Shown here: in pieces, positions 2,291-52,725 of the stretch
Layout: each line of letters begins with the position of its first letter
Position numbering within the stretch: position 1 is the stretch's first letter
Source of the DNA: Sphingobacterium sp. PCS056
Lineage (GTDB): Bacteria > Bacteroidota > Bacteroidia > Sphingobacteriales > Sphingobacteriaceae
DNA length: 64,000 nt
Direction of reading: 5' to 3'
NCBI RefSeq assembly: GCF_023273895.1
Contig: NZ_CP096883.1
Location: 4,898,001-4,962,000, forward strand
Made by a program: the position numbers and the translations under genes
Notes under the pieces: model-generated
Told to the model about the DNA's origin: nothing
Seen by the model: only the letters and a program-made list of their open reading frames with translations
The model's database searches: none

Positions 2291-2366
2291 GCGAAAATAG
2301 CTCAGCTGGTAGAGCACAACCTTGCCAAGGTTGGGGTCGCGAGTTCGAATCTCGTTTTTCGCTCCA
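2291..2366 (+). tRNA. tRNA-Gly (anticodon GCC)
   Basis: A full cloverleaf can be drawn. The acceptor GCGAAAA pairs with TTTTCGC. The D arm is GCTC...GAGC. The anticodon stem CAACC/GGTTG holds the loop TTGCCAA with anticodon GCC. The T arm is GCGAG-TTCGAAT-CTCGT. CCA is encoded at 2364-2366. tRNA-Leu follows 13 bp later, so both are probably one transcript. Confidence 0.95.
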
Positions 2367-2379
2367 CTTAATACACCTT

Positions 2380-2464
2380 GCCTAGGTGGTGGAACTGGTA
2401 GACACGCAGGACTTAAAATCCTGTTTCCGTTAAGGAAGTGCGGGTTCGATTCCCGCCCTAGGTA
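2380..2464 (+). tRNA. tRNA-Leu (anticodon UAA)
   Basis: A class II tRNA with a long variable arm. The acceptor GCCTAGG pairs with CCTAGGT. The anticodon stem CAGGA/TCCTG holds the loop CTTAAAA (anticodon TAA). The T arm is GCGGG-TTCGATT-CCCGC. CCA is not encoded; CGG follows. The 3' end overlaps the last codons of a serine recombinase on the other strand, so this tRNA is the apparent chromosome/element junction. Confidence 0.95.
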
Positions 2465-3984
2465 CGGAAGGGGGAAGACCCCGAAAAAGAAGAGGGTTTC
2501 TCAATTTTGAGGAACCCTTTTTCATTGATTCCCAATGCATTGTCAAAAAATAAAGCATTAACATCAGAAGTTCGAAAGCTACCCTCAAAGTATGTGATAT
2601 CAGCTTTGAACAACTCCCTAACCAGTGCATGTTTATCCCTAATATCAGCTTTTTGATAGATCTCTTTTAAATTAGAAAAGTGTGGTAAATACCTTTGTAA
2701 TTCCGCCCATTCTTTTGAACCATTATTATATAAAGTATCATCAATTTCACTTTTTAAAATAGCCTTTTCCTCCATAAACTTTTTATGCCATCTTTTGTAT
2801 GTATAGCCCTCAATTTCTTCATTAATTAAACGCTCTTCTAGCTTATCGATCTTTTTATCAACCTCCTCAAGGTTTTTAATTCTGGTTTGAAGCAATAACT
2901 TACTAGATTCATTTTTTTTCTCGAGCATCGCTTTACAGTTCTTTTTTACAAATGCCAACTGTCTCTCCGAAAGACTGATCTCCGATAAGATATCCTCGAA
3001 CTGCGCATGCAGTTTTTCACCGGGATAATTCTTATCTCCGTGATCAAGACACCTGTAATACATATAGTACTTGTATTTACCTTTTGAATACCCAGCAGTC
3101 ATTTTTCTACCACACCAACAATTAACTATACCTCTTAAAGGGAAGTCATCTTTTGGCTGCACTTTACAGGGCTTTCTATTCCCTAATTTTTCCTGCACTC
3201 TCCAATAATCCAACTCACGAATAATGGGTTGATGAAGAGATTTTACGAATTTCTCCGGATTATGCTTATCTGCCTTCACGCGAACCAAGCCTGCATAGGT
3301 ACATTTTTCAAGTATTCGAGGAATGGCGCTTTTTCCCTTTAACGCAAAACCTTTTGATCTTGCCATTTCGACAATCCCTGACAACGGAGTACCTTTTAGA
3401 AATTCCTCGAAAATCATACGTACAATTTCTGCTTCATCAGAATCAACAACAATAATTCCTTTACCTGAACGATCTGTGGAGTTACGGTATCCATACGGAG
3501 CCTTATTGATAAATCTTCCACTTTCAGTAGCCATGCGTATTCCCTTACGGGTTCTTTGCCGAATCCTCAACAGCTCTTGATTAGCCATTAGATATTTAAA
3601 GGCTCGCTGTAAAAAAACATCAGGATCTTCAATGTCAAGATCAATTGGCTCATCAACTGCCAAAACCTTTATTTTATACTTATTCTCTAATGATTTGATT
3701 TTAGCTAAGGCTTCCGATAAGTCCCGACTGAAGCGATCATGCGCAAATATGATCAGATAACGGGCTTTACCCTTTTGGTTTTTAATGTAATCTTCCAATG
3801 CTATAAAGTCAGCCCGATCAAAAGTATCACTACATTCCCCGTTATCGGTAAACATAGTTAACAGTTCGAGATTATAGCGATTACAATAATCCTTTATTGC
3901 CTTTTCCTGATATTCCAATGAATAATTGGATTGATCGCGACTACTTAGTCTCCGATACCCCAGGGCGTACGCTGTTTTTTCCAT
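2458..3984 (-). CDS. Large serine recombinase (site-specific integrase)
   Basis: Probably catalyses integration and excision of the element. The 508 residues start with a resolvase catalytic domain: YRRLSSRDQ near residue 10 (candidate nucleophile Ser14) and DRFSRDL. A recombinase domain follows (KAPYGYRNSTDRSG), then a zinc ribbon (CWCGRKM with a later cysteine) and a long coiled-coil typical of large serine recombinases. The stop codon (2458-2460) and last residues SSPFRT lie in and against the 3' end of tRNA-Leu, placing the gene at the element's edge. The start overlaps the upstream small gene by 44 bp. No tyrosine integrase was seen in the window. Confidence 0.93.
   Translation of the reverse strand: MEKTAYALGYRRLSSRDQSNYSLEYQEKAIKDYCNRYNLELLTMFTDNGECSDTFDRADFIALEDYIKNQKGKARYLIIFAHDRFSRDLSEALAKIKSLENKYKIKVLAVDEPIDLDIEDPDVFLQRAFKYLMANQELLRIRQRTRKGIRMATESGRFINKAPYGYRNSTDRSGKGIIVVDSDEAEIVRMIFEEFLKGTPLSGIVEMARSKGFALKGKSAIPRILEKCTYAGLVRVKADKHNPEKFVKSLHQPIIRELDYWRVQEKLGNRKPCKVQPKDDFPLRGIVNCWCGRKMTAGYSKGKYKYYMYYRCLDHGDKNYPGEKLHAQFEDILSEISLSERQLAFVKKNCKAMLEKKNESSKLLLQTRIKNLEEVDKKIDKLEERLINEEIEGYTYKRWHKKFMEEKAILKSEIDDTLYNNGSKEWAELQRYLPHFSNLKEIYQKADIRDKHALVRELFKADITYFEGSFRTSDVNALFFDNALGINEKGFLKIEKPSSFSGSSPFRT
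2493..2522 (+). terminator. Intrinsic terminator after tRNA-Leu
   Basis: The inverted repeat AGGGTTTCTC / GAGGAACCCT with loop AATTTT is followed by a T-run. It lies 28 bp after tRNA-Leu and would end the tRNA transcript. It is also inside the C-terminal coding part of the opposite-strand recombinase, so one stretch does two jobs. Confidence 0.7.
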
Positions 3985-19208: not shown

Positions 19209-22064
19209 TTACATTCTTAATCCGCTATTTCTCTGACGCGAAGCCTGTATTACCACCGGTTCGAGTGTCTCCGCATTTTCAGCCTGATGCTGTTCGTTTG
19301 GTCCAATGACAGCTGTCTCTTCGACTACCTCACCTTCATTTAATCTATTTTCTTTGATTTTGAGCGATATTTCCCGCTCAAGACTACTCAATTCGATTCT
19401 AAGCGCCTGTAATTCCTCTTCCTGTGAAAAACCCAGGGAACACAATTCCTCTAATCTTGGAATATTAGAGAAATGCTTCCTTATTTGTCGATCATATGTG
19501 TACAGTAATCCGTCAATTCGTTCCAGCGCATTTAGGAAATAGCGCGCCGCAAGCTTTTCATTGTTTGCATTAGGAAAACCTTGATTCGAGGTATATTTTA
19601 TGCCGTCATTCCTTTGAACATAAAGATTATGACTGTAACCGTAGGCAATTTTTCCGTTATACTCATGTGTCTCGTTAATCCTACGGATGTAAAGATCAAA
19701 TCCATAAAGCGCTCCAATTTTCTGCTCTGTTTCTCCCTCTTTGGGTTTCCAATTTTTGAATAGATCAAGAAGATGCCTACCTATTAGATCCGGTTCCGTA
19801 GATGGGCAACCGATCAGTTTTACAGGATTAGCTTTTGTACCGTCATTTTCGTAATACAAGTTTTTTTCATAAACCAAATAGTCTTCTTTTAACCGGCTAT
19901 AAGTGGCAGTATCTTTTTCCAATTCATGGATAGTCGATTGCAAAAGATTCTTATTCACAAAAGCTTCACGAAAATGACTCGCTTTCAAGCTTTCCAAAAC
20001 AGCTATTTTCTTATGCAACTTCGTCTTTTCAAGTAATGAGGTATCTCCGGACAGGATAGCGATATACTCCGCAAAATTCATCCCGGACTGTTCATCCAAA
20101 GCGCCTTCGTCGATCGTTCTTACATTTAGCTCGCAGTTCTTCATCTGAGAAATGAAGGTCTGCTTATTCTTTAATAAGTTAAACTTATAGTTGTCCAAAC
20201 TCTGTTCTACGGCATAGTAATAGGTCCTCACTTTGTTATCACGATACTGCTTCGCCGCCCAGTTTCCTTGCCTGCTTCCTCGGCCGTTTCGTTGCTCTAA
20301 GTCTTTGGGAGTCCACGGTATATCAACATGGTGCATGGCAATGACCCGCTGTTGCACATTAAGCCCTGTACCGGCTTTTTCCGTGCTACCAATGAGAATA
20401 CGAATCTCCCCATCGTTCATTTTTTTGAACAGATTCGAACGCTTCCAACCCGCCCAGTTATTATCGTGAATGAACGTCACTTCATGCTCAGGTATGTCAA
20501 AGTCCCTGACAAGCTTGGTTTTCAACTCATCATAAAGATTGAATTGATCTGGTTTCGGTGTACCAATATCGGAGAATACAATCTGTGTGCCTTTAAATGG
20601 TGTACTGTCGTGATACTCGGCAACAACCTGGCGGGCTATGGTATTGATCTTATTTTCGGGATGGTCGCAATAAACTATCTCATTAATTAACCGCATATCG
20701 GCCGACATTTTCTTAGCGTAGTTGGTTGCAATCAACATACGCGCTTTATCTTCGGCCTGACTTAACTGCCCTCTTCCGATCAATACGCCATCCCCTGTTT
20801 TAGCAAACTCTATTAAATTTTCAATAAACACCTGCTGTTCGGGTGTCGGTTTAAGATTGATCAGTTTTTCATCTAGTTCCGGCTTATCAAGGCTAATGTG
20901 TTTTGCTGTCTTATAGTCCGTAATCAGATTGTACAACAAAGCCAGTTCAGGAACTTTAATAAAATGCCGGAACCGCTCCTTTGCTATAATTTCATTCGTA
21001 ACCGAGAACTCAAAATCTGTAGATTTTTTTGCATACACAGCAGCCCATCCATCAAAGTTTTCAATCCCGAGGCGCTCCATTTCACGCGGTATAAAATATT
21101 TAAAGATCAGGTACTCCTCCGTTAGGCTATTTGAAATTGGTGTACCCGTCAAGAAAGTCACACAGATATCTGCATTGTACCGTAATTGTAAAGTTCTTAC
21201 GGCAAACAACATATTAAGCGCTTTTTGACTCCCCTCTACATTACCCAGTCCTGCCACCCGTGCATGTCTTGTAGTAAAAGTTAGATTCTTATACTTATGG
21301 CTTTCATCCACAAACATATGATCGAGCCCCATATCATTGAATGTGATACCCCTATCTTTCTTTTTCTCAATATTATATCGTACAGCTTTTAATTTACCAA
21401 TAAGGTTCTTTTTTCTGATCTCAAGACCTTTAAGCACTTTCTTTGAAATATCCCCTCCTTCCTTCTGGGCTGTATCCAGATCCCGCTCGACATTTTCGAG
21501 TTCAACATTAAAGATCTGTTGCTGAATTTCGGGAGACTGTGGTATCTTCCCGAATTGATCGTGCGTCAATATCACACAGTCCCAATCGTTACTTTTTATT
21601 TCATGTAACAGCCTAATCCGGTTCCGCGGTTCAAAGTCTTTCTCACTTGGAAACAACAATTTGCCGGATGGATAAGCTTTCTTGTAGGTCTCGGCTATTT
21701 CTCCCACATTTGCTTTTAGTGCAAGTATGATGGGCTTTTGAATAATTCCCAGCCTTTTCATTTCCATACCGGCAACAATCATCGTCAATGTTTTTCCTAG
21801 TCCCACTTCGTGATCGATCAATGCTCCCCGATTTTGGATAATACGCCAGACTGCATTTTTTTGAGATACGTAAAGATCCTCGATACCGAGTGCCTTTTTA
21901 TCTAACCCCGGAAATGTAAGGTGGCTACCGTCGTACTCGCGGAGTACATAACAATTATAGGTATCGTTGTACAGCTTTTCAATTTCTCTTTTATCTTTTT
22001 CCGGTAACGCCATCATCCAGCTGACAAATCCGTTCCGCATCAACTCAATCTTCTGATGCGCCAA
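19209..22064 (-). CDS. SNF2-type helicase half of a split methylase-helicase
   Basis: 951 residues from a TTG codon, though the open frame runs upstream to about 22096. Superfamily 2 motifs: Walker [12 protein letters not shown] near residue 85, DESHKYKNL (Walker B), [10 protein letters not shown], and motif [22 protein letters not shown]. It represents the C-terminal half of large N6-adenine methylase/helicase proteins of plasmids, phages and ICEs, which can include anti-restriction factors such as DarB. The sequence before the TTG continues the same protein (RVPDNELIQ), so this is the rear half of a frameshifted fusion, not a normal separate gene. Confidence 0.88.
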
Positions 22065-24752: not shown

Positions 24753-25202
24753 CTACAAAAGGTAATTATGAACTTCCGCTATAATGGCATACCGTAGATG
24801 CCTGTTGTCTTCTGTTTCTACCGAAAAATCAAATTGATTGAATGTTTCCGTACAGATTTGCAGAAGATTGATAACCTCATAGGTCAATGTTCCTTCTTCC
24901 TTCAGACGATCAAAATCATCTGGAAATTCCTCCTCGATGACGCTTTTGATATACAAAAACTTCGATGGCTTCAACGCAGCAGTAAGCTCTGCCATACATT
25001 GTTCCTGGACGATGTAATCCGGTTGCCCGGCTTCTAAAAGTTCATCAGCCAGCGGCATAACCGATTTGATCTGTTCATCCAGATAAGAACCAACAGAATA
25101 GTTCTCTTGCAAGTCGAACATAAGTTCCGGATTGTGTTCAATGATATATGCCCACAATTTTTCTTTAAGAATGGTAAACATATGATCTTGATTAAACCCC
25201 AA
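24753..25202 (-). CDS. DUF1896 family protein
   Basis: 149 residues, recognisable as DUF1896 from HNPELMFDLQENYSVGSYLD, PDYIVQEQCMAELTAALKPS and LTYEVINLLQICTETFNQFD. The family is common in Bacteroidota conjugative elements; no activity is established. It is soluble, acidic and mostly helical. Its start overlaps the end of traE by 11 bp, so it is translated with it. The methylase gene follows 40 bp downstream. Confidence 0.85.
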   Translation of the reverse strand: MGFNQDHMFTILKEKLWAYIIEHNPELMFDLQENYSVGSYLDEQIKSVMPLADELLEAGQPDYIVQEQCMAELTAALKPSKFLYIKSVIEEEFPDDFDRLKEEGTLTYEVINLLQICTETFNQFDFSVETEDNRHLRYAIIAEVHNYLL

Positions 25203-25518
25203 AAAAACTTTGGATGACAGTCGCTACCACGACTAAAAAAACACAACTTCCAAACCATGCAGCAGCAACTTTGCCCGTATCCTGATCGCCTGAATTCCAT
25301 TTCTGGTACACTTTGACAGCACCGATAAGTCCTAATAGGGCACCAACTGCGTACATTAAGTTCGTGCCGGCGGCAAAGTAGCTCCGCACCTGCTGATTGG
25401 CAGCATTTATTCCGGCAATTCCGTCTTGAGCATACACTGACGATACGCTAACAATAAGTAGGACTAAGAGCAGCCCTGAACGAATTTTATTCTTCGTTAT
25501 CCATTCACACTTTTCCAT
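25192..25518 (-). CDS. traE: Conjugative transposon protein TraE (VirB2-like pilin)
   Basis: 108 residues, DUF4134 type. A signal peptide (SGLLLVLLIVSVSSVYAQ) is followed by GIAGINAANQQVRSYFAAGT and two hydrophobic segments (LMYAVGALLGLIGAVKVYQK and VAAAWFGSCVFLVVVATVIQ), the topology of a VirB2-like pilin precursor. It should form the extracellular or channel pilus. It is the first gene after a structured intergenic region (25550-25635), so its expression may be controlled there. Confidence 0.92.
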   Translation of the reverse strand: MEKCEWITKNKIRSGLLLVLLIVSVSSVYAQDGIAGINAANQQVRSYFAAGTNLMYAVGALLGLIGAVKVYQKWNSGDQDTGKVAAAWFGSCVFLVVVATVIQSFFGV

Positions 25519-27204: not shown

Positions 27205-28419
27205 TTAATAGCTTTCTATTCGTTTAGCAATTTTTTGTAGTGCTTCAATGGCTAACTGCTTATCGCGGTCTTCCGCAACATAGGATTTCGTTCGCATGGA
27301 TTCATAGGATAGATCCTTTCTATGTGGTGTCGAAAGGTAAGGTACTACCGTTCGAAAAACTTCCGTTATGGAATTTGCAACAAATATTCGCGCTTCATCA
27401 GCACCCCGAAGAATTAAAGCAATCTGATCTGCGGATAGACTGCATAAAATCTTTTGAACCGTATCCGACGAGTCTTTCTTGGTTTCAATTGAATCGATGA
27501 TATCTCCATTAGCTGCAAAAGTGATTTGTTTTTCCCAGTAGCTGATTTCTTCCTCAAACCAATTTTCCATAACCACATCCAAATTATGATAATTAGGATT
27601 GAGAATAAATCCTGGTTTGCGATGCAATTGCCTAAAAATTTTTCGAAAATAATACAGACGTTCTATCTTTTTTTGGGGATTTTCGAACGTGCTAATCTGA
27701 TGATATAATCGAAGAGTTAAATCATCGATATAGGATTTACTGTTATAATTCAGGTAGATAAGTAATTTATCGATCTCCCTAAAAGTGGAATCTAAAGTCG
27801 TTCCTTCTTTCTGTAAATTAATCTCGTGCAAACCTTTCACAAGTTCTCGCTTATAGAAGAGCGTCCGAAAAGTAATCTCAAAATCAGAATCACTTTTTTT
27901 TATAAAACGCTCGAGCCGGCTTATGAGTAATTTGTAAGGATATTGATGAATTACTTGATCAAGCTTTAATCGCGCTTTAAATTCTTCCAATTTTTGCCGT
28001 AATCGTTGCCTTGACATTAAAAGATAAGTACTGGCAACCCGCTCATCCTGACTTAAAAACTCTGGATAGCGATTCTCAATAAATTGTAAAATATCGCTTA
28101 AAACGTTGAACAAACTTTCATATACCTTTACCAAATCCGAATGATCGTCTGGAAGCTTTGATCGGTTAGCAAACACGATATCAATGATATTAATAGTAGA
28201 AATATAATACTTACGTATGATGATTTCTATCTCTTTTCTCTTTGTTGCGCCGAACACATGGCTTTTTATTAAAGACTGAATACGGATGCATTCTTCCCGT
28301 AAAAAGTTATCAAGATTACGACATTGTTCACCACTCAAATCATTAAGATCTACGACATTAGGATTAAGCGATATAGTAGCCAGTACATCAATCGACTCCA
28401 AAGGATAACTATTCTGCAT
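27205..28419 (-). CDS. rteC: RteC-like regulatory protein
   Basis: 404 residues, helical throughout. The C-terminal part carries FREIDKLLIYLNYNSKSYID and, near the end, AEDRDKQLAIEALQKIAKRI, resembling RteC-family proteins of Bacteroides conjugative transposons. In CTnDOT, RteC activates excision genes. RteA and RteB partners are not present here, so regulation must differ. It is oriented towards the transfer genes and ends near the convergent hairpin. Homology is recognised from pattern only; the assignment is moderate. Confidence 0.65.
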   Translation of the reverse strand: MQNSYPLESIDVLATISLNPNVVDLNDLSGEQCRNLDNFLREECIRIQSLIKSHVFGATKRKEIEIIIRKYYISTINIIDIVFANRSKLPDDHSDLVKVYESLFNVLSDILQFIENRYPEFLSQDERVASTYLLMSRQRLRQKLEEFKARLKLDQVIHQYPYKLLISRLERFIKKSDSDFEITFRTLFYKRELVKGLHEINLQKEGTTLDSTFREIDKLLIYLNYNSKSYIDDLTLRLYHQISTFENPQKKIERLYYFRKIFRQLHRKPGFILNPNYHNLDVVMENWFEEEISYWEKQITFAANGDIIDSIETKKDSSDTVQKILCSLSADQIALILRGADEARIFVANSITEVFRTVVPYLSTPHRKDLSYESMRTKSYVAEDRDKQLAIEALQKIAKRIESY

Positions 28420-28477
28420 AATTCATAGATAAATTAATTAGACAAAAAGCTAACAATCTTTCATTTACATTTTACAG

Positions 28478-28487
28478 TAGGTACGGA
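28478..28487. repeat. 10-bp match to the tRNA-Leu/recombinase junction
   Basis: TAGGTACGGA here repeats 2459-2468, the last bases of tRNA-Leu plus the next four. It lies just beyond the RteC-like gene. It could be the right attachment core of a 26-kb element, or chance: a 10-mer is expected by accident in roughly one of sixteen 64-kb windows per strand. See findings. Confidence 0.3.
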
Positions 28488-28757
28488 TTTATTGAGTTTC
28501 GTTACAAAAAAAATAAAAAAATTCTTTCAGAATAGTAAAATCGCCTGTAAGGTATATCCCAGATGAATAATACTTAGAAAGCAGAACAAACATTTTTCAA
28601 AGTTCCACCACGTTTATTTTTTTGACCTGCAACATATTTTAAGGATAGGATATTTTGAGACTCTAAAAAATATTTTATAGAATTATCATTGAATTTCAGT
28701 TTTTATTTGCGTTATTGACTTATAGTTTTTAGTTCAAAATCCAATTAGAAAACTACC

Positions 28758-29270
28758 GTGTTTTTAAGGAAATCAGACGAAGATGCTTTTCTACAACGTT
28801 TAAAACGACATTCCGGAATTATCATCCGCGTGAGTCGTATTTATTTTGATTTTGAAGAAGACCGAAAAGATTTAAAACAAGAGATCATTTATCAGCTATG
28901 GAAGTCTTTTCCATCTTTTCGTGAGGAAAGTTCCTTTTCTACTTGGATGTATAGAGTAGCTGTAAATACAGCACTGACATATCTTCAGCAGAAAAAAAAG
29001 GCATCAATCATTCACTCTTACGAAAAATTACCCGAAATTGGTGAAGAAAACGATACGGATATTAAAGAATTACAGACTAAAATATTCTATGAGGCGATTT
29101 ACAAACTTACACCAGTCGAAAAAGCGTTAATCTTTTATCATTTAGAAGGACTTCCTCATAAAGAGATAGGAGAACAGCTGGGTATAAGTGAAGTGAACGC
29201 TAGAGTAAAACTAAACAGGATTAAAGAAAAAATTAAGGAAATCATTAAAAAGCAAGGTTATGAATTTTGA
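28758..29270 (+). CDS. ECF sigma factor
   Basis: 170 residues from GTG 28758; an in-frame stop just upstream leaves no earlier start. Region 2 is seen as DLKQEIIYQLWKSFPSFREE with STWMYRVAVNTALTYLQQKK, and region 4 as LEGLPHKEIGEQLGISEVNA. It is an extracytoplasmic-function type sigma-70. It overlaps the following membrane-protein gene by 11 bp, the usual arrangement for a sigma and its membrane partner. The target promoters are unknown; genes at 29860-31530 follow closely and may be read from the same promoter. Confidence 0.9.
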   Translation: MFLRKSDEDAFLQRLKRHSGIIIRVSRIYFDFEEDRKDLKQEIIYQLWKSFPSFREESSFSTWMYRVAVNTALTYLQQKKKASIIHSYEKLPEIGEENDTDIKELQTKIFYEAIYKLTPVEKALIFYHLEGLPHKEIGEQLGISEVNARVKLNRIKEKIKEIIKKQGYEF

Positions 29271-29856
29271 CGATTTTAAAAATAACTGGAAGTCGGAACA
29301 GGATGAAATAGAAATACAATTCTCCAAATCATCAAATCACCCGTTGAGAAGGTTACAAAAGACTTTGTACCGTGAAATAATTGCACAAATCGTAGGTGTT
29401 ATTTTTTTAGCATTTTTTCCTTTTCTATTTTCCTTTTCGGAAATACTGACAAAAGTATACTTTATAGTTTACGCCATGATTTTTGTCTCTGCCTGTTATT
29501 ATATTCTTTCTTTCAGAAAGTTTTACCAGAGCCTTAATGTACTACACTATTCTTCCTATCAAGGACTCTATGAAGTTTATGTGCGCTTGCAAATATTTAT
29601 TGAAAGATATAAATCATTCAGTTTATTTATAGTTCCTTACGCCCTATTAGCGCTTCTAATTTCATTTTTGGACAACTATTATGATCAGGAACTTCACCAG
29701 TTTATTGTTTCTCAGAATAAGTTGATCACAATAATTGTCATCTTAACATTCACAACGATTTTATTTTTATTATTGATAAATATCTATTGTCGCATTGTGT
29801 ATGGAAGATATGTTAAAGAATTGAAAAAGCTAATTGACGAATTTGACAACAATTGA
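29260..29856 (+). CDS. Membrane protein paired with the ECF sigma (possible anti-sigma)
   Basis: 198 residues. An N-terminal cytoplasmic part of about 45 residues (FDDFKNNWKSEQDEIEIQFS) is followed by four hydrophobic segments (IIAQIVGVIFLAFFPFLFSF, VYAMIFVSACYYILSF, LFIVPYALLALLISF, LITIIVILTFTTILFLLLIN). The sigma gene overlaps it. A short soluble head on a membrane anchor fits an anti-sigma factor, but no classical ZAS or FecR motif is seen, so this is inference. Confidence 0.75.
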   Translation: MNFDDFKNNWKSEQDEIEIQFSKSSNHPLRRLQKTLYREIIAQIVGVIFLAFFPFLFSFSEILTKVYFIVYAMIFVSACYYILSFRKFYQSLNVLHYSSYQGLYEVYVRLQIFIERYKSFSLFIVPYALLALLISFLDNYYDQELHQFIVSQNKLITIIVILTFTTILFLLLINIYCRIVYGRYVKELKKLIDEFDNN

Positions 29857-29859
29857 TTC

Positions 29860-30450
29860 ATGGAAGAAATATCAAACACGCTATTCAGCGAACTAAATAA
29901 TGCTATTCAAATACTAGAAGTAGCTAAAAACTTCAAACATATTATAATTCCCGAATACGATTGCTCCAGACTGCCCGAAATTGGGACAAACGGTAAAAAT
30001 CTTCCCGAAAATCTAAAACACGAGTTCTTTTCTCATTTGCACCAATTTGATCAAGTCGACGGAAACATAAATGATTTTCCATGTATTTATGCCTTTGAAT
30101 TGATTGACATATTGGATGGTGATAGAGTACTACAGGCTTTTACACAGGTTGACAAAGTATTGATCCAGCGTACTATTCCAGCGCTAAAATCACAACCACC
30201 AAAAGATTCAAAATATTTATACTTGGGAAAAGTGGAAACAGCAGTTGGAAACAGGCTAGTTACACATTTAGGATATTACGTCCAGCCGGGCAATCACGGT
30301 CTACAATTAGCATATTGGATGAAAGATATTTTACCGGCAATTAAAATAAGAGTTCACATATTTAGATTTGAAAAAAAATTCAAACCTTATTTAACTGCAT
30401 TTGAAGTTATCATGGCTAAAGAACTAAAACCGATTATAGGTAAGCATTAA
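29860..30450 (+). CDS. GIY-YIG-like nuclease fold protein
   Basis: 196 residues. The C-terminal 125 residues show the spacing of a GIY-YIG domain: CIYAFEL (75-81) as the first motif, YLGKV (121-125) as the second, Arg132 and His136 in GNRLVTHLGYY, Glu182 in TAFEVIMAKEL, and P191-IIGKH at the end. Catalytic Tyr, Arg and Glu are therefore plausible. The match is divergent (the GIY glycine is replaced). It begins 3 bp after the membrane-protein gene, and a PLD-like nuclease gene follows 18 bp later, so the three are probably one operon. Function is otherwise unknown. Confidence 0.6.
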   Translation: MEEISNTLFSELNNAIQILEVAKNFKHIIIPEYDCSRLPEIGTNGKNLPENLKHEFFSHLHQFDQVDGNINDFPCIYAFELIDILDGDRVLQAFTQVDKVLIQRTIPALKSQPPKDSKYLYLGKVETAVGNRLVTHLGYYVQPGNHGLQLAYWMKDILPAIKIRVHIFRFEKKFKPYLTAFEVIMAKELKPIIGKH

Positions 30451-30468
30451 CGACACAAACTAAAAAAC

Positions 30469-31530
30469 ATGATAGAATCATTTTCATCTGGAATTGAAGA
30501 TAAAATACTTGAAAAAATATCTAGCGCACGTAGTCATATTACAATTATGTCAGCATGGTTCACCAATGAACAAATAATAAATGCACTAATTTCTCGAAAA
30601 AGACGAGTACCTAATCTCGACATTGAAATTCTTGTTACAAATGATCACGTAAACCGTACTTATTTTCTAAAGCATAGCGCAGCGATGTCGAAAGTTGGAA
30701 TAAAGACAACACTTTATAGGAAATCACAATTGATGCATAATAAGGTTATATTAATTGACAACCTTACTTACATTACTGGATCTTACAACCTGTCCGCAAA
30801 CGCAAATAAAAATATTGAAAACATTATTGTCTTGGAATCAGAGAAATTTTGCAAATACTACAAACGTATTTTCTTATTTCTGACTAACGCTAACTACATT
30901 GATAACAACATTGCACTACTCTATAAATATCCGGATTTTTGTCGTGAATTATTAAGTACGTATTATCCATTCACGAAAACAGACCTTAAAAAATACCACA
31001 ATAAAATATTATTGGGAGATTGCTTTTCGCACGACGTTGGCGACTATAACAATATTTCTTATACCCCCGGACTGATATTCAATAAAAGTATCAGTCTAGT
31101 CGAGTTTAACGATTCTAATTTCTTTGAGAAGGATTTTTATCAATGTGAATACACTTTACCCGTATCAAGACAATTAATTATGAATGTGATGGAATCAGAA
31201 AGCCACAATCACATATTGTCATCTTTTAGGGAGCATGAAGACTTATGGCATTTAATTGGAGATTCTTTAGACCAGGCAACAACTGACATAGAAGAACTTT
31301 TTAAAAGAAAAATTGAAAACTGCTTTTCATCGGAGGAAACAGAGCAAAAAATAATAGATGGGATAGATATTATCAAAGAAGATGATTTATGGAAAGTCCA
31401 ATTCCAGCCCTTCTTAACTAAGGCAACCGCACAAGATCTACTGCAAAAGCTTCCCATAATTGAAAAATCGACTCTTCTATCAAAGAACATTCTTCGGAAA
31501 AATCCAATCCCCGATCCACCAAGTTTTTGA
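30469..31530 (+). CDS. Phospholipase D-like domain protein, probable nuclease
   Basis: 353 residues. The first 130 residues form a PLD domain: a strand ITIMSAWFTNEQIINAL, then LMHNKVILIDNLTYITGSYN with His90, Lys92 and Asp97 as the HxK...D motif and GSYNLSANAN as its closing part. Only one HKD motif is present, so a dimer is expected, as in Nuc-type nucleases. The remaining 220 residues have no recognised domain. It is immediately downstream of the GIY-YIG-like gene. Confidence 0.78.
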   Translation: MIESFSSGIEDKILEKISSARSHITIMSAWFTNEQIINALISRKRRVPNLDIEILVTNDHVNRTYFLKHSAAMSKVGIKTTLYRKSQLMHNKVILIDNLTYITGSYNLSANANKNIENIIVLESEKFCKYYKRIFLFLTNANYIDNNIALLYKYPDFCRELLSTYYPFTKTDLKKYHNKILLGDCFSHDVGDYNNISYTPGLIFNKSISLVEFNDSNFFEKDFYQCEYTLPVSRQLIMNVMESESHNHILSSFREHEDLWHLIGDSLDQATTDIEELFKRKIENCFSSEETEQKIIDGIDIIKEDDLWKVQFQPFLTKATAQDLLQKLPIIEKSTLLSKNILRKNPIPDPPSF

Positions 31531-31596
31531 TCCTTTTACTAAAGAAGGTGATCCAAGAAATCGCCAAAAGGAAATGGACAAATCTTAAACACAATA

Positions 31597-31616
31597 AATG
31601 CCCCTTCAGGGGCATT
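31597..31616. terminator. Bidirectional intrinsic terminator
   Basis: AATGCCCC / GGGGCATT with a TTCA loop, between the convergent PLD and MUG113-type genes. Compact GC stem with short AT runs on both sides. Confidence 0.7.
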
Positions 31617-31619
31617 AAA

Positions 31620-32426
31620 TCAATTTTTTACGTTCGATTGTAAGTATTCTTGTACAAATCTTTCCAAATCATTCAACTGCTTAAATGTCAATCTAAACCA
31701 CTCTCCTCTTACCCTATTTTTTGCGTATCTATCGTGAAGCAATTTTTCCAGCTCCTTATCTGCTTTCCAGAAAGCCACACGATGAACCGCAGGTTCTTTG
31801 GAATGCAGTGTTCCTTCTCTATATTTAGGGTTTTTACTTCTACCAATTTTAATCAAACCTGTTTCTTCATTAACCATTAAATATACATATTCCGCGTTCT
31901 CAACGATCTCACCATCATGAATGTTACCAAACCAATCTCTATAATAATCTCTATGTCTTATAAATTTCATTTTAAAGATGCCTCTTTCCGCATTAGAAAA
32001 CAATACAGCACCTTGTCCTAAATATGGTTCAATCTCATGATTTGAGACAGTAAAAAATCCACTTTTTTCTATAAACCCACGTAACTTAGTTTGGTAAGTA
32101 TTCACAGCAGCAATAGCATCTACATTTTCATAACTTTCAGCCAGCAAATTACAAAACTTCATTAAAAGCAAATTATAATCATCATCCATCAAATTCAATA
32201 TAATTATATCTCCCCGCAAACCTTGTCGATTATCAACAAAGAACATCCTAACATCTAATCCATGTTCGTCATCACAAAGTTCAACGCCGTAACAATGATC
32301 TTCCAAATTAACAATCACGTTATTTAATGGCCCGTTGTCAGCCTTATTCAATTCATAAATATCTTCTACTGCCAACGTAAAACAGCAATCGAAAAATTTG
32401 TCTTCGGTAATTTCTGGTTTATCCAT
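31620..32426 (-). CDS. Protein with C-terminal GIY-YIG (MUG113/T5orf172-type) domain
   Basis: 268 residues. The C-terminal part reads EYVYLMVNEETGLIKIGRSK (about residues 179-198), then Arg203, and KLLHDRYAKNRVRGEWFRLT, the pattern of MUG113/T5orf172 GIY-YIG domains found in phage and mobile elements. The first 170 residues are acidic and of unknown fold; YDGEIVENAE-like joints precede the nuclease part. Such domains are thought to cut DNA. It faces the PLD gene and follows the HExxH gene by about 100 bp on the same strand. Confidence 0.82.
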   Translation of the reverse strand: MDKPEITEDKFFDCCFTLAVEDIYELNKADNGPLNNVIVNLEDHCYGVELCDDEHGLDVRMFFVDNRQGLRGDIIILNLMDDDYNLLLMKFCNLLAESYENVDAIAAVNTYQTKLRGFIEKSGFFTVSNHEIEPYLGQGAVLFSNAERGIFKMKFIRHRDYYRDWFGNIHDGEIVENAEYVYLMVNEETGLIKIGRSKNPKYREGTLHSKEPAVHRVAFWKADKELEKLLHDRYAKNRVRGEWFRLTFKQLNDLERFVQEYLQSNVKN

Positions 32427-32525
32427 ATGGTTTTATTGGTTATATATAATCCTTTTCTAGTAGTAGAAAAATTAGTTCAGCGTCAACCAACATAGCAGTA
32501 TTAATCTAAACTGATTATGTTCATT

Positions 32526-33836
32526 TTAGCGTTGCAAATTTAACGCACTTAGTCCCCATGTTTTCGTTAATTGACCAAACGGACATAGTTCGCTATCATT
32601 CATTTTCAGAAACGGATTTTTTTGACAATTATCATCCGTTAAGTCCTTACTTTCATTGGATTTTTTACAAAATTCGTACATAGAACATCGTCCGCTATCT
32701 CCATAAATTTGTTCCAAAACAATTGAGGCAGTGTACAGTAAATATGGCTGATCTGGAGGGTCTTGCAACATATCAGTTGGTGGAACTAATCCGGCTTCTT
32801 TTTTGATGTTTAAAAAAAAAGGAGTTCCCATATTTTCAAATATCCTCTTAAATTCCCATGTCAAATTCCCATCCCCATCAACCAGATCCAATAGAAAAGT
32901 AGGATTTTCCAATCTAATCTTTCTCGCTTCAGTAAGAATGTGTTTGATCCACTTCAACTCCTTTTCAAAAATGTAACTCCCGAACAAATTATCATAATCC
33001 TTTTCCGCCGAATCAAAAGTTTCACTAAAAAGATCATTAACATTATCAAAATCTCCCATCAGCCCACTCAATGATACACCTTCAAACAGGAAATCATAAA
33101 ACTCTTTTGGATCTTTCGGATACATATCACCAACTTGCTGTAATTTGTCTATAATTCCAAAAAATAATTCCCCAGGATGGTAGTGCATTAAACACGCGTC
33201 ACATAATACAATCTTTAATTTTTCGTCAGTAAAATTTGGCAATTCCTTATTAATAATCAAGTCAACTAGTAAATAGGGAGCATCAGGATGCTCTATCTCT
33301 AAAAACTTATTTTGAATGGTATGAGCTACAAATTCTTTTAAAGCAGTTATTCCAAAATTATAATTTATTTGTTTTCGTGTATCAACACAAGTTAAATTAA
33401 CTACATACCTAAATGGTCGAATAGGCTCTCCTACTTTAGGAGTAATAGTTTCTTGAAAACTATATTTATCATTATAAATCACTCGCCTTATAGGTTGAGA
33501 ATCGCCTCGATAAATTACGTTTAATTTATGAATAGCTAATCTATTGTGATTATGATCAACTTTCAACGGCAATTGAATCGAAGTTGCCACATTATTTTTC
33601 ACTTGATCAACTGCATATTTTACTAATTGGGTGTAGTGGCCAGACGAATAAAGTCCACTAGTACTTGTAAAATTTTGCAAATAATGGATGTACTCATGTA
33701 AGAATGTAGACATTACTCTTTTATTGTCACGAAGTACAATATTTAAGTCATTCAGGCTTTCGTCTGTATTTATAGTCATACACATAAAACCAAGCAAATA
33801 ACTACCCGCTGCCTGAGCATTTTCGTCTGTAAACAT
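32526..33836 (-). CDS. Putative zinc metallopeptidase-like protein (HExxH)
   Basis: 436 residues without a signal peptide, so probably cytoplasmic. HEYIHYLQNF at residues 47-56 is a clear HExxH zinc motif on a helix; a third ligand could not be assigned. The C-terminus has a cysteine cluster (CSMYEFCKKSNESKDL, DNCQKNP, ELCPFGQL) that may bind a second metal. The family is not one I can name. It may be co-transcribed with the GIY-YIG gene downstream. A role in a conflict system is possible but only by location. Confidence 0.6.
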   Translation of the reverse strand: MFTDENAQAAGSYLLGFMCMTINTDESLNDLNIVLRDNKRVMSTFLHEYIHYLQNFTSTSGLYSSGHYTQLVKYAVDQVKNNVATSIQLPLKVDHNHNRLAIHKLNVIYRGDSQPIRRVIYNDKYSFQETITPKVGEPIRPFRYVVNLTCVDTRKQINYNFGITALKEFVAHTIQNKFLEIEHPDAPYLLVDLIINKELPNFTDEKLKIVLCDACLMHYHPGELFFGIIDKLQQVGDMYPKDPKEFYDFLFEGVSLSGLMGDFDNVNDLFSETFDSAEKDYDNLFGSYIFEKELKWIKHILTEARKIRLENPTFLLDLVDGDGNLTWEFKRIFENMGTPFFLNIKKEAGLVPPTDMLQDPPDQPYLLYTASIVLEQIYGDSGRCSMYEFCKKSNESKDLTDDNCQKNPFLKMNDSELCPFGQLTKTWGLSALNLQR

Positions 33837-45600: not shown

Positions 45601-46545
45601 ATGAGCAGATCAAATTTTGAGATTATAACAGAGGCTTTGTCTCATATTGCGAACAAAGTTGCTATTCATAATCATTTGAATTTACAAGACATCAACATTT
45701 ATCTTGAGAACTTTTTCAGAGATATATTGAATATAATTTACTCCGATAGAACTTTTGAAAACCTCAATAATCAAGAAGCCAACTTTACTGCAATTGATTT
45801 AGGTGATGATAAAAAAGATTTAGCCATTCAAGTGACTTCTACAACAACGCTGCAAAAAGTTAGAAAAACCATCACAAAGTACCAAACAGAATACGGTTAT
45901 AACAAAATTATAATGCTTTATGCAAAAGTTGACAAACCTACTCGTTCAGTTGATCTAAATTTAGAGAACAGTATTGAAGTTGAAGAATGGTCAATCAAAG
46001 ATTTATGTAAAAAAATTGAAAATTTAGGTGATGAAAAGATCTTAGAAATTCAGAAGATCGTGCTAAATCAAATCACTCCCTCTTTATACGATAATTATTC
46101 CAAAACCAAGGATATTTCGGCATCGGAGCAATATGATAATTTAGAACAAAAAGATATTAGAAATATCACAGATAAATTATTAGACGTTTGTCCAACAATT
46201 AGTACACACCGCCTACAAAAATATTCGAGAGACATCGCTTCCGGAGAAGCTGAATTAAGTAAATTTTCCGACAGAGAGATAACCTCAATGAAATACAGAA
46301 TTTTTGAAGTATGCCAAGAAGAATTAATTGATTTTTGTGAACTTAATGACACAACGCAAGAAGTTGATTTTATTACTATTAACACATTAATAGAAAAATA
46401 TACTGATCGGGCATCTTTAATTATCCAACAAAAGTCTAAAGACTATAGTTATCCTTTAAAGAATGAAGACCTTCTTAAAAAGGTCGTACTTGCACTTATT
46501 AATGACTGCTATCTATCATTTGACGAAAAAGGCATTTACTCATGA
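45601..46545 (+). CDS. ABC-3C system SMEK-domain protein
   Basis: 314 residues. The first 150 residues match the SMEK domain: NIYLENFFRDILNIIYSDRT, then NFTAIDLGDDKKDLAIQVTS and KVRKTITKYQ. These form a restriction-endonuclease-like fold in the ABC three-component (ABC-3C) conflict systems defined by comparative genomics. The remainder is helical and unassigned. The stop overlaps the next start (ATGA), and an ABC-type ATPase is third, which is the complete ABC-3C order. Confidence 0.82.
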   Translation: MSRSNFEIITEALSHIANKVAIHNHLNLQDINIYLENFFRDILNIIYSDRTFENLNNQEANFTAIDLGDDKKDLAIQVTSTTTLQKVRKTITKYQTEYGYNKIIMLYAKVDKPTRSVDLNLENSIEVEEWSIKDLCKKIENLGDEKILEIQKIVLNQITPSLYDNYSKTKDISASEQYDNLEQKDIRNITDKLLDVCPTISTHRLQKYSRDIASGEAELSKFSDREITSMKYRIFEVCQEELIDFCELNDTTQEVDFITINTLIEKYTDRASLIIQQKSKDYSYPLKNEDLLKKVVLALINDCYLSFDEKGIYS

Positions 46546-47045
46546 ACAATACAAAACAAGAAGCTAAAAAGCGCCTTATGTTTATTCAAAAAGAGGATTA
46601 TAACTTTTTGACATATCACATTTTAATCTTATTAAAAATACTTGGTGCCACTTCTATTGAGAGTAAATTCCAAGATTATAAAAAAATAGCATATTTAATT
46701 CAGTTTTTGTCCACCAAACCAAGATTCAATGAATATTCGAAGGTCGAATTAAGTCAAGCTTACAATCGAAGCCATTTAAAGAAGCAACTAATATCACATC
46801 TTGTCCTCATATTAAAAAATAAAAACTATATCGGAGTACATTTCAATCTACAACGTAACTCACTAGACATATGGCTAATAGAAGAAAATATACCAGAATC
46901 ATTTTTTGATACTAGCCTATTCGTAAGAGAAATAGACAATACCAAAATATTAAAATCGGAATTACCAAGATTAAAGGTACTAACATTAAAAACGATGGTC
47001 GATACCATATTTACAAAAAATAATATTATTACATGGGAAGTTTAA
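46542..47045 (+). CDS. ABC-3C system middle component
   Basis: 167 residues, with no signal or membrane segment. It sits between the SMEK protein and the ABC ATPase, overlapping the first by 4 bp and the second by 13 bp. Helical N-terminal half (YNFLTYHILILLKILGA; KIAYLIQFLSTKP) and a wing-like hairpin (KNKNYIGVHFNLQRNSLDIW) suggest a winged-helix fold, as described for ABC-3C middle components. Function in the family is not experimentally fixed; it probably links ATPase and effector. Confidence 0.7.
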   Translation: MNNTKQEAKKRLMFIQKEDYNFLTYHILILLKILGATSIESKFQDYKKIAYLIQFLSTKPRFNEYSKVELSQAYNRSHLKKQLISHLVLILKNKNYIGVHFNLQRNSLDIWLIEENIPESFFDTSLFVREIDNTKILKSELPRLKVLTLKTMVDTIFTKNNIITWEV

Positions 47046-48949
47046 TAATAAAAAGAGTAAGATATGAGGGTGATCACTATGTCTATGAATCACCTGAACT
47101 AAATAGTGGAATTAACATTATAATAGGTGATAACGGTTCTGGAAAAAGCACTTTCACTTATTTAATAGAATATTGTTTAGGAGGTTATCTAAAGTATTTC
47201 AATGTAGATAATAAAACCGAAAAATACATTGAGATTGTAAGTGACACTAATAATTATGCTGAAATAGAAGTTCTACTAAATGGTGAACTCTATGGTTTCA
47301 AGAGATTTATTGGAGGAAACGTTGTTTATGTCAACTCTGGCGAGGAATACAACTCTTTTCCAATTTATCGGCAACAGTTGGAAGGTACAGTAGAGTCCGA
47401 GATTTTTTCGGACTGGATGTTAGATAAGCTTAGTATAACAAAGCAAGAATTAAACCTAGGAACAAAAACCTGGAAATTAAATATAAACGATCTACTTAGG
47501 TTAATCATTTATGATCAGGACACCCCGTCAAAAAAAATTTATAAAGAACCAACCAACCTTAATTTCGTCACAGACTCACTTCTGATTAGAAAAACGATCT
47601 TTGAGGTATTACTGGGAATATCATCTGATGAATATTTTAGAAAGTTCGAAGAATTCAAAAACATTGAAATTCTTCGAGATAAAGAACATCTAAAAATCGA
47701 AGCATTTAATGAAAGGTATTCTGGAATCGACTTAGATATCGAAAAAATTGAAAAGGATCTAACATCCCAAAATATTGAACTGGAAACCCTTTATAATCAA
47801 AGAGATCTATTTCTTAGCTCTAATAAAAAAGTTGATAAGAAAACACACTTAATATCGGAGATTCAAGAACAAATCATTCAAGACGAGATCGAATTATCAA
47901 CAATAAGTCTTAATATTCAAGCTAACCAAATTGAATTTGAAAAGATATCGAAGTATTTTCAAGCACAGACAAGTGAAATAAATGAAATAGAGAAAATTAT
48001 TTTCACAAATGAAAAATTAAACTTATTCTCTTTTAGATTATGTCCATTTTGTATGAATGAACATGACCCTAAGGAAAATCATTGTCTATGTGGAGCAGAA
48101 ATCAAGGATGAAGATTATGAAAAATTCATTTATTCTTCAAAGGAATATGAGAACATCCTTAAACATAAAAAGAAAAGCCTTGAAACAATCCAGACAGCCT
48201 TAGATTCGTATAGTAGCGATATAAATAAAGGCATTTTAAAAAGAGATTATATCCAAAGCAAAATTAAAGACGCTACGGAAAAACTCAAAGCCCTTATTAA
48301 TTCTACTGATGTAAATAAAAATAATGAAGCAATCGATCATTTGCATGCAGAAATACTGGAGCTAATGAAGAGAATCGAAAGTTATTCTTATAGGAGGAAG
48401 ATTGCCATTGAAAAACAGAAATTAGAAGAGAACTTTAAAAAAGTTACTGAAACATATAAGACGATCAAAACAGAATTGGATGACCTCCAGAAAATTTTCG
48501 ATAAAAATAATCGTGAAATAATTTCAAATTTCAATTCAATTTACCACGATCTAATTACGAAGTCCTCTGCTGATGCAAACGCAGCCGAAATCAATGAAGA
48601 CTATATGCCTATAATTGATCAGGGTATCTATAAAAATAAAAGTGCTGGTGTTCCGGTTAGATTAATATACTATTACACAATATTAGCTTTAGCAATCAAA
48701 TATAAAACGGTTAAACACCCCAGACTTTTAATAATTGATACTCCTGAAGACTCAGGAATTGATGACGATAATCTTAAAAACGATCTCTTATTACTTCAAA
48801 AAGTACTAAGTAATGTAAATGCAGATAGTGAATCATACCAGGTAATATTGACCACAGGACTTGAAAAATACCCTTCTGAATTTGGTCCGTACATTATCGA
48901 ACGATTCAACAAGAAGGATGAAGGGAAGTTTATATTAAACGAGAAATAA
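47033..48949 (+). CDS. ABC-3C system SMC/Rad50-like ATPase
   Basis: 638 residues. Walker A is IIIGDNGSGKSTFTYLIEYC near residue 28. Two long coiled-coil arms flank a cysteine cluster (CPFCMNEHD and CLCGAEI, about residues 337-357) that should bind zinc at the hinge. Walker B is HPRLLIIDTPEDSGIDDDNL. Such ATPases act with SMEK-type effectors in conflict systems. The two short overlaps upstream imply tight stoichiometry. Confidence 0.85.
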   Translation: MGSLIIKRVRYEGDHYVYESPELNSGINIIIGDNGSGKSTFTYLIEYCLGGYLKYFNVDNKTEKYIEIVSDTNNYAEIEVLLNGELYGFKRFIGGNVVYVNSGEEYNSFPIYRQQLEGTVESEIFSDWMLDKLSITKQELNLGTKTWKLNINDLLRLIIYDQDTPSKKIYKEPTNLNFVTDSLLIRKTIFEVLLGISSDEYFRKFEEFKNIEILRDKEHLKIEAFNERYSGIDLDIEKIEKDLTSQNIELETLYNQRDLFLSSNKKVDKKTHLISEIQEQIIQDEIELSTISLNIQANQIEFEKISKYFQAQTSEINEIEKIIFTNEKLNLFSFRLCPFCMNEHDPKENHCLCGAEIKDEDYEKFIYSSKEYENILKHKKKSLETIQTALDSYSSDINKGILKRDYIQSKIKDATEKLKALINSTDVNKNNEAIDHLHAEILELMKRIESYSYRRKIAIEKQKLEENFKKVTETYKTIKTELDDLQKIFDKNNREIISNFNSIYHDLITKSSADANAAEINEDYMPIIDQGIYKNKSAGVPVRLIYYYTILALAIKYKTVKHPRLLIIDTPEDSGIDDDNLKNDLLLLQKVLSNVNADSESYQVILTTGLEKYPSEFGPYIIERFNKKDEGKFILNEK

Positions 48950-50864: not shown

Positions 50865-52154
50865 TTAAACGTTACTGATTGGAACATCAATTCGATCCCT
50901 TGCTACGCAATATCCATCTTTTATAATGTAACACTCAACAAAATGCCCCCCTTCAAAGTCTGAACTTTCTTTTCTCATATTGCCTGATAAGTTACTTTCG
51001 AGGATTTCACCCCGAAGAGTATTTCTCTGTTTAGCAATCCAACCTTCATTTTTTACTTTCCATAATACGTTATACGGTTCCTCAACATCCGTTGATTCAA
51101 TAAAAAATTTAAGCTTTTTGTTCTTCCGTAAAAATTTCACTGTACGTAAAAGTTCTGTTCTGAACCCAGCTTGTTGGACTTCACAGTTTATCCGCAACAT
51201 ATTGCTAATATCCATCGGATACCGCTCTTCAATATATTGTTCATTCGCAACATAGTTATAGCTTCTTTCTTTGATAACTTGAGGATACGGAAAGACTTTT
51301 CCAAAGACCAGACGCCATATCTCGTAAACCGTATCTTCATCATTTTTGGATATGGCATTCTCTATATTTTTAACAGCCTTCTTTGCCTTTGATTTAAAAT
51401 TTGAATTCTTCTTCTTATAAACATGCTGATTACTTCCTGGAGCGAACCAGTAGGCGCGATTGTCATTAAGTTCACTTAAATACGCAAAGAAATCTTTAAC
51501 CAAAACGTCATAATCAGCATAGCCGTAATCGGCGTATTCCTTATTAGCAGAAAAAAAATTGTAAACAAATGTATCAATTAAAAGACCTCCAATTTTCACA
51601 CCACATTTGTTTTTCCATGCTCTTACAATCCGACATAAATTGACAACATTACCATTGCATTGATCGTCCAATTCTTTTAAGCTGGCTGCTTCTGGCGAAG
51701 GATCAGTTTTTTTCCAACGACCTCCATTATTTGAATCTGCGTAAGTGTAGCTTCCGTCTGCCTCAAGAAATGCAGGACAGACTTCAATAAAGTCGTTGGT
51801 AAATTGTATTACAACAACCTGACCGTCTCCCCTAATCTTTGATGAAGAATATGTTTTCAAAAGTGACTTTTTTACGTCCTGTAACAATTGACTTTGCCCA
51901 TTTCCTTCTCGATTATTGTACGTATAATAGAGTTCATCCGGTAGAACAAATAAAAGATCAAGGTCGCTGACACCATTAATCGCAGTGTCACGACCATAAC
52001 TCCCCACATAGATACCATTATCTACTTTAGATTCAATATCGCGGAAATCTCTGTTAAGTCTTTGGGTTATTAAACCGAATCTATTTTCTATACTACTTTG
52101 GTTTTGGACGATAAGGTTACTGGCAAAATCTTGGAAGGTTTGGTATACATCCAT
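50865..52154 (-). CDS. CBASS-type CD-NTase (SMODS/AGS-C) nucleotidyltransferase
   Basis: 429 residues. The nucleotidyltransferase motif is GSYGRDTAINGVSDLDLLFV with Gly51-Ser52 and the metal ligands Asp64 and Asp66; the third carboxylate appears to be Glu124 in FIEVCPAF, a conservative change from Asp. The C-terminal 90 residues look like the AGS-C sensor found after such enzymes (LRINCEVQQAGFRTELLRTV, GGHFVECYI). It should make a cyclic or linear oligonucleotide upon infection. Its start overlaps the SLATT gene by 38 bp. The nucleotide product cannot be read from sequence. Confidence 0.85.
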   Translation of the reverse strand: MDVYQTFQDFASNLIVQNQSSIENRFGLITQRLNRDFRDIESKVDNGIYVGSYGRDTAINGVSDLDLLFVLPDELYYTYNNREGNGQSQLLQDVKKSLLKTYSSSKIRGDGQVVVIQFTNDFIEVCPAFLEADGSYTYADSNNGGRWKKTDPSPEAASLKELDDQCNGNVVNLCRIVRAWKNKCGVKIGGLLIDTFVYNFFSANKEYADYGYADYDVLVKDFFAYLSELNDNRAYWFAPGSNQHVYKKKNSNFKSKAKKAVKNIENAISKNDEDTVYEIWRLVFGKVFPYPQVIKERSYNYVANEQYIEERYPMDISNMLRINCEVQQAGFRTELLRTVKFLRKNKKLKFFIESTDVEEPYNVLWKVKNEGWIAKQRNTLRGEILESNLSGNMRKESSDFEGGHFVECYIIKDGYCVARDRIDVPISNV

Positions 52155-52725
52155 AAAATAAATAAATCAAAATTATAATGATAATAAGTAACAGCACGCT
52201 TGCAAGTGATCTCGGTAGTTTATCTTTAAAAAATGTAAGTTTTAATTCTTTTACAACCCAGTCTGGTTGTGATTCATAAAAGAATTTAAAATGCGCATAC
52301 CATTGAGAAAGGAACACCTGCTTACTGATTGTGTTTGAATAGAAATCGTTAAGAATATCTTTATACTCATTTTCGTAGTTTTTATAATCGAAATTATTAT
52401 CCCCACTAACTTTATAGTACAGATCTCTAGTTTGATTAAATAGTTTTGTCAATCGTATCCCTTCATTATTATAATCGTCGACCTTCCCTTTGAAAACATC
52501 GATATACATTATACCGATCCCGACAAAAATCAAGATAATTGATAGCTCTTTATCAAAAGGTATATTGTTATATGCAATCTGAATAATACCGATGGCTAAA
52601 GAAACAAATCCGATCCAACTTGGCAACTTATTTATAATATCGTAAGATGCAAAATTTTTCTTTGCCCCGAAACCAATATCATACCCTTTTTGAGCTAACG
52701 TATTTAAAAACTTATCTTGATTCAT
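52117..52725 (-). CDS. SLATT-domain membrane effector of the CBASS system
   Basis: 202 residues. Two membrane helices lie near residues 36-53 (SWIGFVSLAIGIIQIAY) and 60-77 (LSIILIFVGIGIMYIDVF), with a third at 173-194 (SLASVLLLIIIIILIYLFYG). The start AKKNFASYDIINKLPSWIGF suits the SLATT family, which are thought to be pore-forming effectors in nucleotide-signalling conflict systems. It is upstream of and overlaps the CD-NTase. Expected action: membrane damage after activation by the nucleotide, from family knowledge. Confidence 0.8.
   Translation of the reverse strand: MNQDKFLNTLAQKGYDIGFGAKKNFASYDIINKLPSWIGFVSLAIGIIQIAYNNIPFDKELSIILIFVGIGIMYIDVFKGKVDDYNNEGIRLTKLFNQTRDLYYKVSGDNNFDYKNYENEYKDILNDFYSNTISKQVFLSQWYAHFKFFYESQPDWVVKELKLTFFKDKLPRSLASVLLLIIIIILIYLFYGCIPNLPRFCQ

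Follow-up and report, generated by a model that had tools for sequence, protein, structure and literature searches.

The four adjacent genes at positions 28758-31530 of the window, i.e., of the 64,000-nucleotide stretch of DNA analyzed here (bases 4898001-4962000 of one 5.2-Mb chromosome), are probably best explained as a transplanted sigma/anti-sigma switch located beside two stand-alone cargo nucleases, which are probably defensive and are perhaps expressed from the transcript of the switch. According to this explanation, the cargo of an integrative conjugative element (ICE) would have been assembled from pieces that live separately elsewhere. A sequence-only reading of the same DNA had proposed that the sigma switch and the two nucleases form one unit; its nuclease folds were recovered in the analyses described below, the joining of the switch to the nucleases was not, and the sequence comparisons do not support a conserved system in which the nucleases are under sigma control.

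Organization of the four-gene string

The features of the region are listed in Table 1. The arrangement of four plus-strand genes with overlaps or gaps of 3-18 bp, as initially described, is borne out by the positions of the open reading frames: genes 1 and 2 overlap by 11 bp, genes 2 and 3 are separated by 3 bp and genes 3 and 4 by 18 bp. The residues named as catalytic candidates, Glu182 in gene 3 and His90/Lys92 in gene 4, were also correctly placed. Genes in bacterial operons are commonly separated by same-strand gaps of such length, so the tight spacing taken alone carries little information. Beyond gene 4, at a distance of 90 bp and facing it, a further gene of GIY-YIG type is encoded, which differs from gene 3 and matches the Pfam families MUG113 (48.2 bits) and T5orf172 (36.1 bits), both over the cut-off.

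Table 1. Features of the four-gene string and its surroundings, in window positions.
Feature	Position	Strand	Basis
Gene 1: ECF sigma factor, 170 aa, GTG start	28758..29270	+	Pfam Sigma70_r2 and r4_2, TIGR02937
Gene 2: membrane partner, putative anti-sigma, 198 aa	29260..29856	+	sigma neighbor, hydropathy
Gene 3: GIY-YIG nuclease-fold protein (predicted), 196 aa	29860..30450	+	alignment, predicted model
Gene 4: Nuc-like PLD nuclease domain and C-terminal tail	30469..31530	+	PLDc_2 match
Second GIY-YIG-type gene (MUG113/T5orf172), outside the string	31620..32426	-	Pfam
p404: divergent 404-aa gene, family without name	27205..28419	-	predicted promoter faces it
Predicted ECF-type promoter TGTAAC-N17-TACCTAC, reading leftwards	28477..28506	-	matrix score 19.8 bits
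SMEK-domain gene, LmuC-like and LmuB-like genes in a row	45601-48949		PADLOC
CBASS-type cyclase (AGS_C sensor) and 2TM effector	50865-52725	-	
C-terminal LHH nuclease domain, weak RHS-repeat match, polymorphic-toxin type	60365-62977	-	

The sigma factor and its membrane partner

The assignment of gene 1 as an ECF sigma factor holds, as in its about 170 amino acids both region 2 (39.9 bits, cut-off 24) and region 4 (37.6 bits, cut-off 25.7) score over the curated Pfam cut-offs; in NCBIfam it matches TIGR02937 with 91.7 bits. Its closest paralogues in the same genome show 55, 54, 49, and 42% identity. The GTG start of the gene is plausible, since a GTG also occurs in 14 of 33 relatives, there three codons further downstream. 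Gene 2 has no above-cut-off match in Pfam or NCBIfam, its hydropathy peaks indicate about four hydrophobic segments, and its short N-terminus is conserved, with Asn2 and Trp10 present in all rows (25/25) of the alignment. Of 93 genomes searched within the genus, 53 contain a match to it, the own genome counted, and no relative was found in viral contigs. The earlier proposal that gene 2 is the membrane partner of the sigma factor is substantiated by these hydropathy peaks and by the pairing of the two genes: among 29 loci fetched outside the own genome, which are best matches, one per genome, with about 1.5 kb on either side, a sigma relative adjoins the membrane gene in 28. The own genome encodes four further copies of gene 2, three with a sigma relative alongside and one without (1692756-1693241). 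Just 5' of the lone relative (L164, G000:C1:1691500-1694500), for which no sigma relative is present in the 3 kb, a TGTAAC-type site is found. Genes 1 and 2 thereby show the pattern of a sigma/anti-sigma pair, and gene 2 would be expected to bind the sigma factor. Judging from how such pairs work, the sigma factor would stay bound to its membrane partner and be freed in response to an envelope signal.

Upstream of the sigma relatives a conserved site was identified. The pattern TGTAAC-N15-18-(T/G)AC(A/C/T)(A/C/T)A(T/C) is present within 160 bases 5' of 24/33 relatives, a count that overstates the independent evidence because many of these loci are from near species. The spacer is 16 or 17 bases in all 24, and TGTAAC is absent from the 160 bases checked in seven of the 33. 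The site presumably acts as a promoter, and from its position the sigma relatives seem to be autoregulated. The freed sigma factor would accordingly read promoters of the form TGTAAC-N16/17-KACYWAY. A matrix was constructed from 19 distinct sites, which derive only from the upstream regions of sigma relatives and none of them from the window. Its top score in the window is 19.8, on the minus strand at 28506 and directed toward the divergent gene p404 starting at 28419; 30 Markov-shuffled versions of the window have top scores from 9.2 to 18.6, so the value of 19.8 lies only just above the best shuffle. The second window site (18.5) is antisense within tra genes at 11652 and a score of 15.0 is reached by the third, at 61619. 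Genome-wide, the pattern occurs 12 times and its reversed control six times; one of the 12 sites precedes a sigma paralogue and another the membrane-gene copy without a sigma neighbor. The control rate predicts about 0.0004 chance matches for the 340 bp that precede the sigma gene, a value estimated after the site had been seen. No such site was found before the sigma gene of the window itself (best plus-strand score 2.4) or before the nuclease genes (best score 1.2). Housekeeping promoters of Bacteroidota consist of TTTG and TAnnTTTG, and the strict pattern has no match on either strand at 28301-31600.

The divergent gene p404 is the likely target of the predicted promoter, i.e., the recognizable site next to the sigma gene would drive it. 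The gene was matched in 17/93 genomes, the own genome counted, and in 11 of the 16 others it is less than 50 kb away from a sequence matching the traE-like stretch of the window; tra homologues are located beside p404 relatives in the loci L169, L171, and L150 and not in L170. When the upstream regions of 18 p404 relatives were inspected, none contained a TGTAAC site and a single one a loose match, TGAAAC; a link between the sigma factor and p404 would therefore be specific to this element. Neither a sigma nor a membrane relative is present in the loci of the p404 relatives, about 1.5 kb on either side. Several identities for p404 were considered and rejected. RteC would suit the place near tra genes, yet no PF09357 row was obtained among 16 family members and no PF09357 match at E<=1 genome-wide, in a search in which none of 14 control genomes passed the cut-off either. 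A Pfam match to ZFYVE21_C (20.1 bits, below the cut-off of 25), three single-member NCBIfam rows and 11 PDB sequence rows, the best of them FlhA with E 0.0074, were not taken as meaningful.

Two predicted nucleases of different fold

Gene 3 was matched by no family of Pfam or NCBIfam, the GIY-YIG families included. A PHROG match is weak (21.5 bits), and the two rows obtained among PDB sequences are not GIY-YIG proteins (best E 0.009). All 22 rows of an alignment share the residues Y77, Y121, R132, and H136, and 21 of them also E182, the exception being L077, which has a gap there. The AlphaFold model has a mean pLDDT of 80.7. Plain Foldseek with this model gave no row at E<=0.001, and the first GIY-YIG row, T4 EndoII, appeared at rank 13 with E 0.78. 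In a structural second look, the top nine rows are all GIY-YIG nucleases (Z 7.6-5.4, rmsd 3.1-4.4), including EndoII (Z 7.6, rmsd 3.1 over 110 residues), UvrC (Z 6.2-5.5), and R.Eco29kI (Z 5.4), and unrelated folds begin at Z 3.9 and below. Taken alone, Z values below 8 are modest; the GIY-YIG fold was accepted because the structural ranking and the conserved motif occur together. Prediction thus assigns a GIY-YIG nuclease fold to gene 3, for which nuclease activity is predicted, and the GIY-YIG residues claimed from the sequence turn out to be conserved in the alignment and to agree with the predicted structure. A single-sequence scan of genome contigs returned 55 candidate stretches with no relative among them, and a three-row profile found 21 loci. 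By profile search, relatives occur in 10/395 genomes of the class and in 16/400 genomes of the order, the own genome counted in both, with some rows of the latter weak and partial, and in one viral contig. No match was found in plasmids or phages.

Gene 4 matches PLDc_2 in Pfam with 67.0 bits (cut-off 27; E 1.9e-18), and its best PDB sequence is 1byr, described as 'endonuclease.' The HxK...D motif of PLD type, which had been noticed from the sequence, lies in this above-cut-off domain, and H90, K92, D97, S105, and N107 are invariant in 14 rows. That gene 4 carries a Nuc-like PLD nuclease domain holds on sequence grounds, and catalytic activity is predicted. The protein consists of one Nuc-type PLD domain at about residues 1-137, the only part over which its model is confident, followed by a C-terminal tail of about 200 residues. 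Most matches end by about residue 140 and a few weak ones extend to residue 247; a SPOR match in the tail scores 20.8 bits and thus just below the cut-off of 21. Matches to gene 4 are found in 1782 plasmid and 2 phage records, none of them with 80% query coverage, and no relative was found in viral contigs.

An assignment of gene 4 to DISARM was considered and rejected. DrmC is matched with 22.9 bits, compared to an NCBI cut-off of 133, and with 28.2 bits in PADLOC. For the helicase at 19209-22064, the similarity to DrmD (41.5 bits) and DrmA (22.1 bits) is confined to 64 and 52 residues, respectively, and among 20 window proteins analyzed in PADLOC there is no DrmB row and no full-length DrmA.

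The conjugative element and its defense genes

The string is surrounded by ICE genes, i.e., TraG, TraJ, a relaxase, a coupling protein and a serine recombinase, which together with two adjacent tRNA genes mark an integrative conjugative element. At 2291-3984 the two tRNA genes, arranged in tandem, adjoin the large serine recombinase; this is the probable left end of the element. An exact 18-base repeat of the region 2281-2520 was not found elsewhere in the window. The gene at 25192-25518, which we take to be traE-like, shows 81 and 89% identity to genes of two relatives that are likewise located near traG homologues. The genes at 27205-33836 have a GC content of 29.8-35.4%, compared to 38.4-41.8% for traG, traJ, and relaxase, 36.2% for the CBASS cyclase and 37.1% for the whole window, and at the DNA level no plasmid was matched by the region 27205-33836. 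The four-gene string is most likely low-GC cargo of the conjugative element.

The element carries further genes of defense type. The three genes at 45601-48949 are probably a Lamassu-type defense operon, with an LmuB-like match of 159.1 bits, an LmuC-like match of 34.7 bits and a SMEK-domain gene that corresponds to Aga REase-PNTD of PADLOC (79.1 bits). Relatives of the SMEK-domain gene are found near a sigma paralogue in one locus (L168) and adjoining a gene-3 relative in another (L190). Among the neighbors of gene-3 relatives, of which ten were classified after being picked by eye in five loci (two were without family), are type I restriction (L063), AbiEii (L067, L069), a PLD-helicase (L072), and RadC (L002). 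As the element carries Lamassu-like and CBASS genes and gene-3 relatives lie near defense genes, this context makes a defensive role of both nucleases likely.

Linkage in relatives and alternative explanations

Neither half of the string accompanies the other in the loci examined, and a conserved four-gene unit was rejected. Near the sigma/membrane pair, neither gene 3 nor gene 4 was found in any of the 29 fetched loci, about 1.5 kb on either side. In none of 30 loci of gene-3 relatives was a gene for the sigma factor, the membrane protein or a close PLD relative found; these comprise 22 loci that extend up to 5-6 kb to either side, searched by tblastn at E 0.01, and eight further loci from 13 stretches, five of which repeated earlier loci, and several are cut by contig ends, three of the 30 (L198-L200) were recognized by profile only and L199 and L200 share DNA. 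Near gene-4 relatives, no sigma, membrane or gene-3 relative was found in 48 loci, about 1.5 kb on either side. The claim of a unit of sigma switch and two nucleases fails at this point: the search of neighborhoods finds no such string, and the separate location of nucleases and sigma pair (0/29, 0/30, 0/48 loci) is the outcome named beforehand as refuting it. No description of the four-gene string was found in the literature, judged by titles and opening lines of abstracts. Because relatives carry the halves apart, the arrangement of sigma pair and nucleases is most likely a chance arrangement of cargo.

An unlikely alternative is that the string is nevertheless a signal-triggered system, in which envelope disturbance by phage entry or incoming conjugation would free the sigma factor and thereby raise the expression of its own operon together with the nucleases. 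The tight spacing of all four genes, the apparent autoregulation of the sigma relatives (24/33) and the defense genes on the same element fit this explanation, which is set against the lack of a site before the sigma gene of the window (2.4) or before the nucleases (1.2) and against the absence of the string from every relative examined.

It is quite unlikely that genes 3 and 4 alone constitute a two-gene defense pair of GIY-YIG and PLD nuclease, with the sigma pair as a bystander. Besides the 18-bp gap between the two genes, this is suggested by the locus L072, in which a gene encoding a PLD domain and an SNF2-helicase ends 5 bp ahead of the gene-3 relative, a hint of a link between GIY and PLD nucleases. 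The L072 PLD gene was missed by tblastn with the window PLD, which misses remote PLD genes, and was recovered by Pfam. However, it is the only PLD gene beside a gene-3 relative among 30 neighborhoods, of whose neighbors a minority was Pfam-scanned, and it is of a different kind; moreover, all 48 loci of close PLD relatives are without a gene-3 relative within about 1.5 kb.

Very unlikely, too, is that the element captured a host envelope-stress switch, with the promoter directed leftwards to an ICE-linked gene and the nucleases located rightwards on the sigma transcript. If this were true, membrane disturbance by phage or mating would couple the behavior of the element to an attack on DNA. The least probable explanation, that the sigma pair regulates the element by switching p404 and hence transfer while the nucleases process or protect element DNA, fits the orientation of the predicted site toward p404 and the proximity of p404 relatives to the traE-like stretch (11/16), but p404 is without known function or RteC match, its relatives are without TGTAAC upstream (0/18) and their loci are without sigma or membrane relatives.

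For the preferred explanation, a transplanted switch beside independent cargo, genes 3 and 4 would be two independent DNA-cutting enzymes, most likely acting against other incoming DNA, and the spacing suggests that they may share the transcript of the sigma pair. Among the points against it are that selection for co-expression would also produce the 3- and 18-bp gaps after the pair, that the L072 locus hints at a GIY/PLD link and that the promoter argument rests on a single site. The striking adjacency does not represent a recurring system in the relatives examined, and the surprise is smaller than it first looked. The gene-3 family gains a predicted fold and a set of relatives, some of them in defense-type neighborhoods, and the genus-wide ECF sigma/membrane pair gains a testable promoter. 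If the sigma copy truly steers the element, a mobile element would time its cargo by a stress switch.

Comparison with known systems

Genes 1 and 2 resemble the ECF sigma/membrane anti-sigma pairs of Bacteroidota in the presence of regions 2 and 4, in the overlapping membrane gene and in the upstream site found in relatives. In contrast to these, the copy in the window is located on a conjugative element, has no recognizable site of its own and is followed by nuclease genes, and its partner is without an above-cut-off match in Pfam or NCBIfam. PMC13088901 refers to the Dma anti-sigma factors of Bacteroides as proteins that span both membranes.

Like the Nuc endonuclease (1byr) and other single-HKD PLD nucleases, gene 4 contains one PLD domain with the motif HxKx4Dx6GSxN, and it differs from Nuc by its C-terminal tail, which comprises about 200 residues and lies beyond the end of most matches. 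Its similarity to DISARM DrmC is confined to the PLD domain and lies far under the DrmC cut-off. Gene 3 differs from T4 EndoII, R.Eco29kI, and the N-terminal domain of UvrC by an extra N-terminal part and shows 13-15% identity to them in structural alignments, whereas it shares with them the predicted fold and the positions of Tyr, Tyr, Arg, and Glu; R132 and H136 are presumably spaced in a similar way to the Arg and His in R.Eco29kI.
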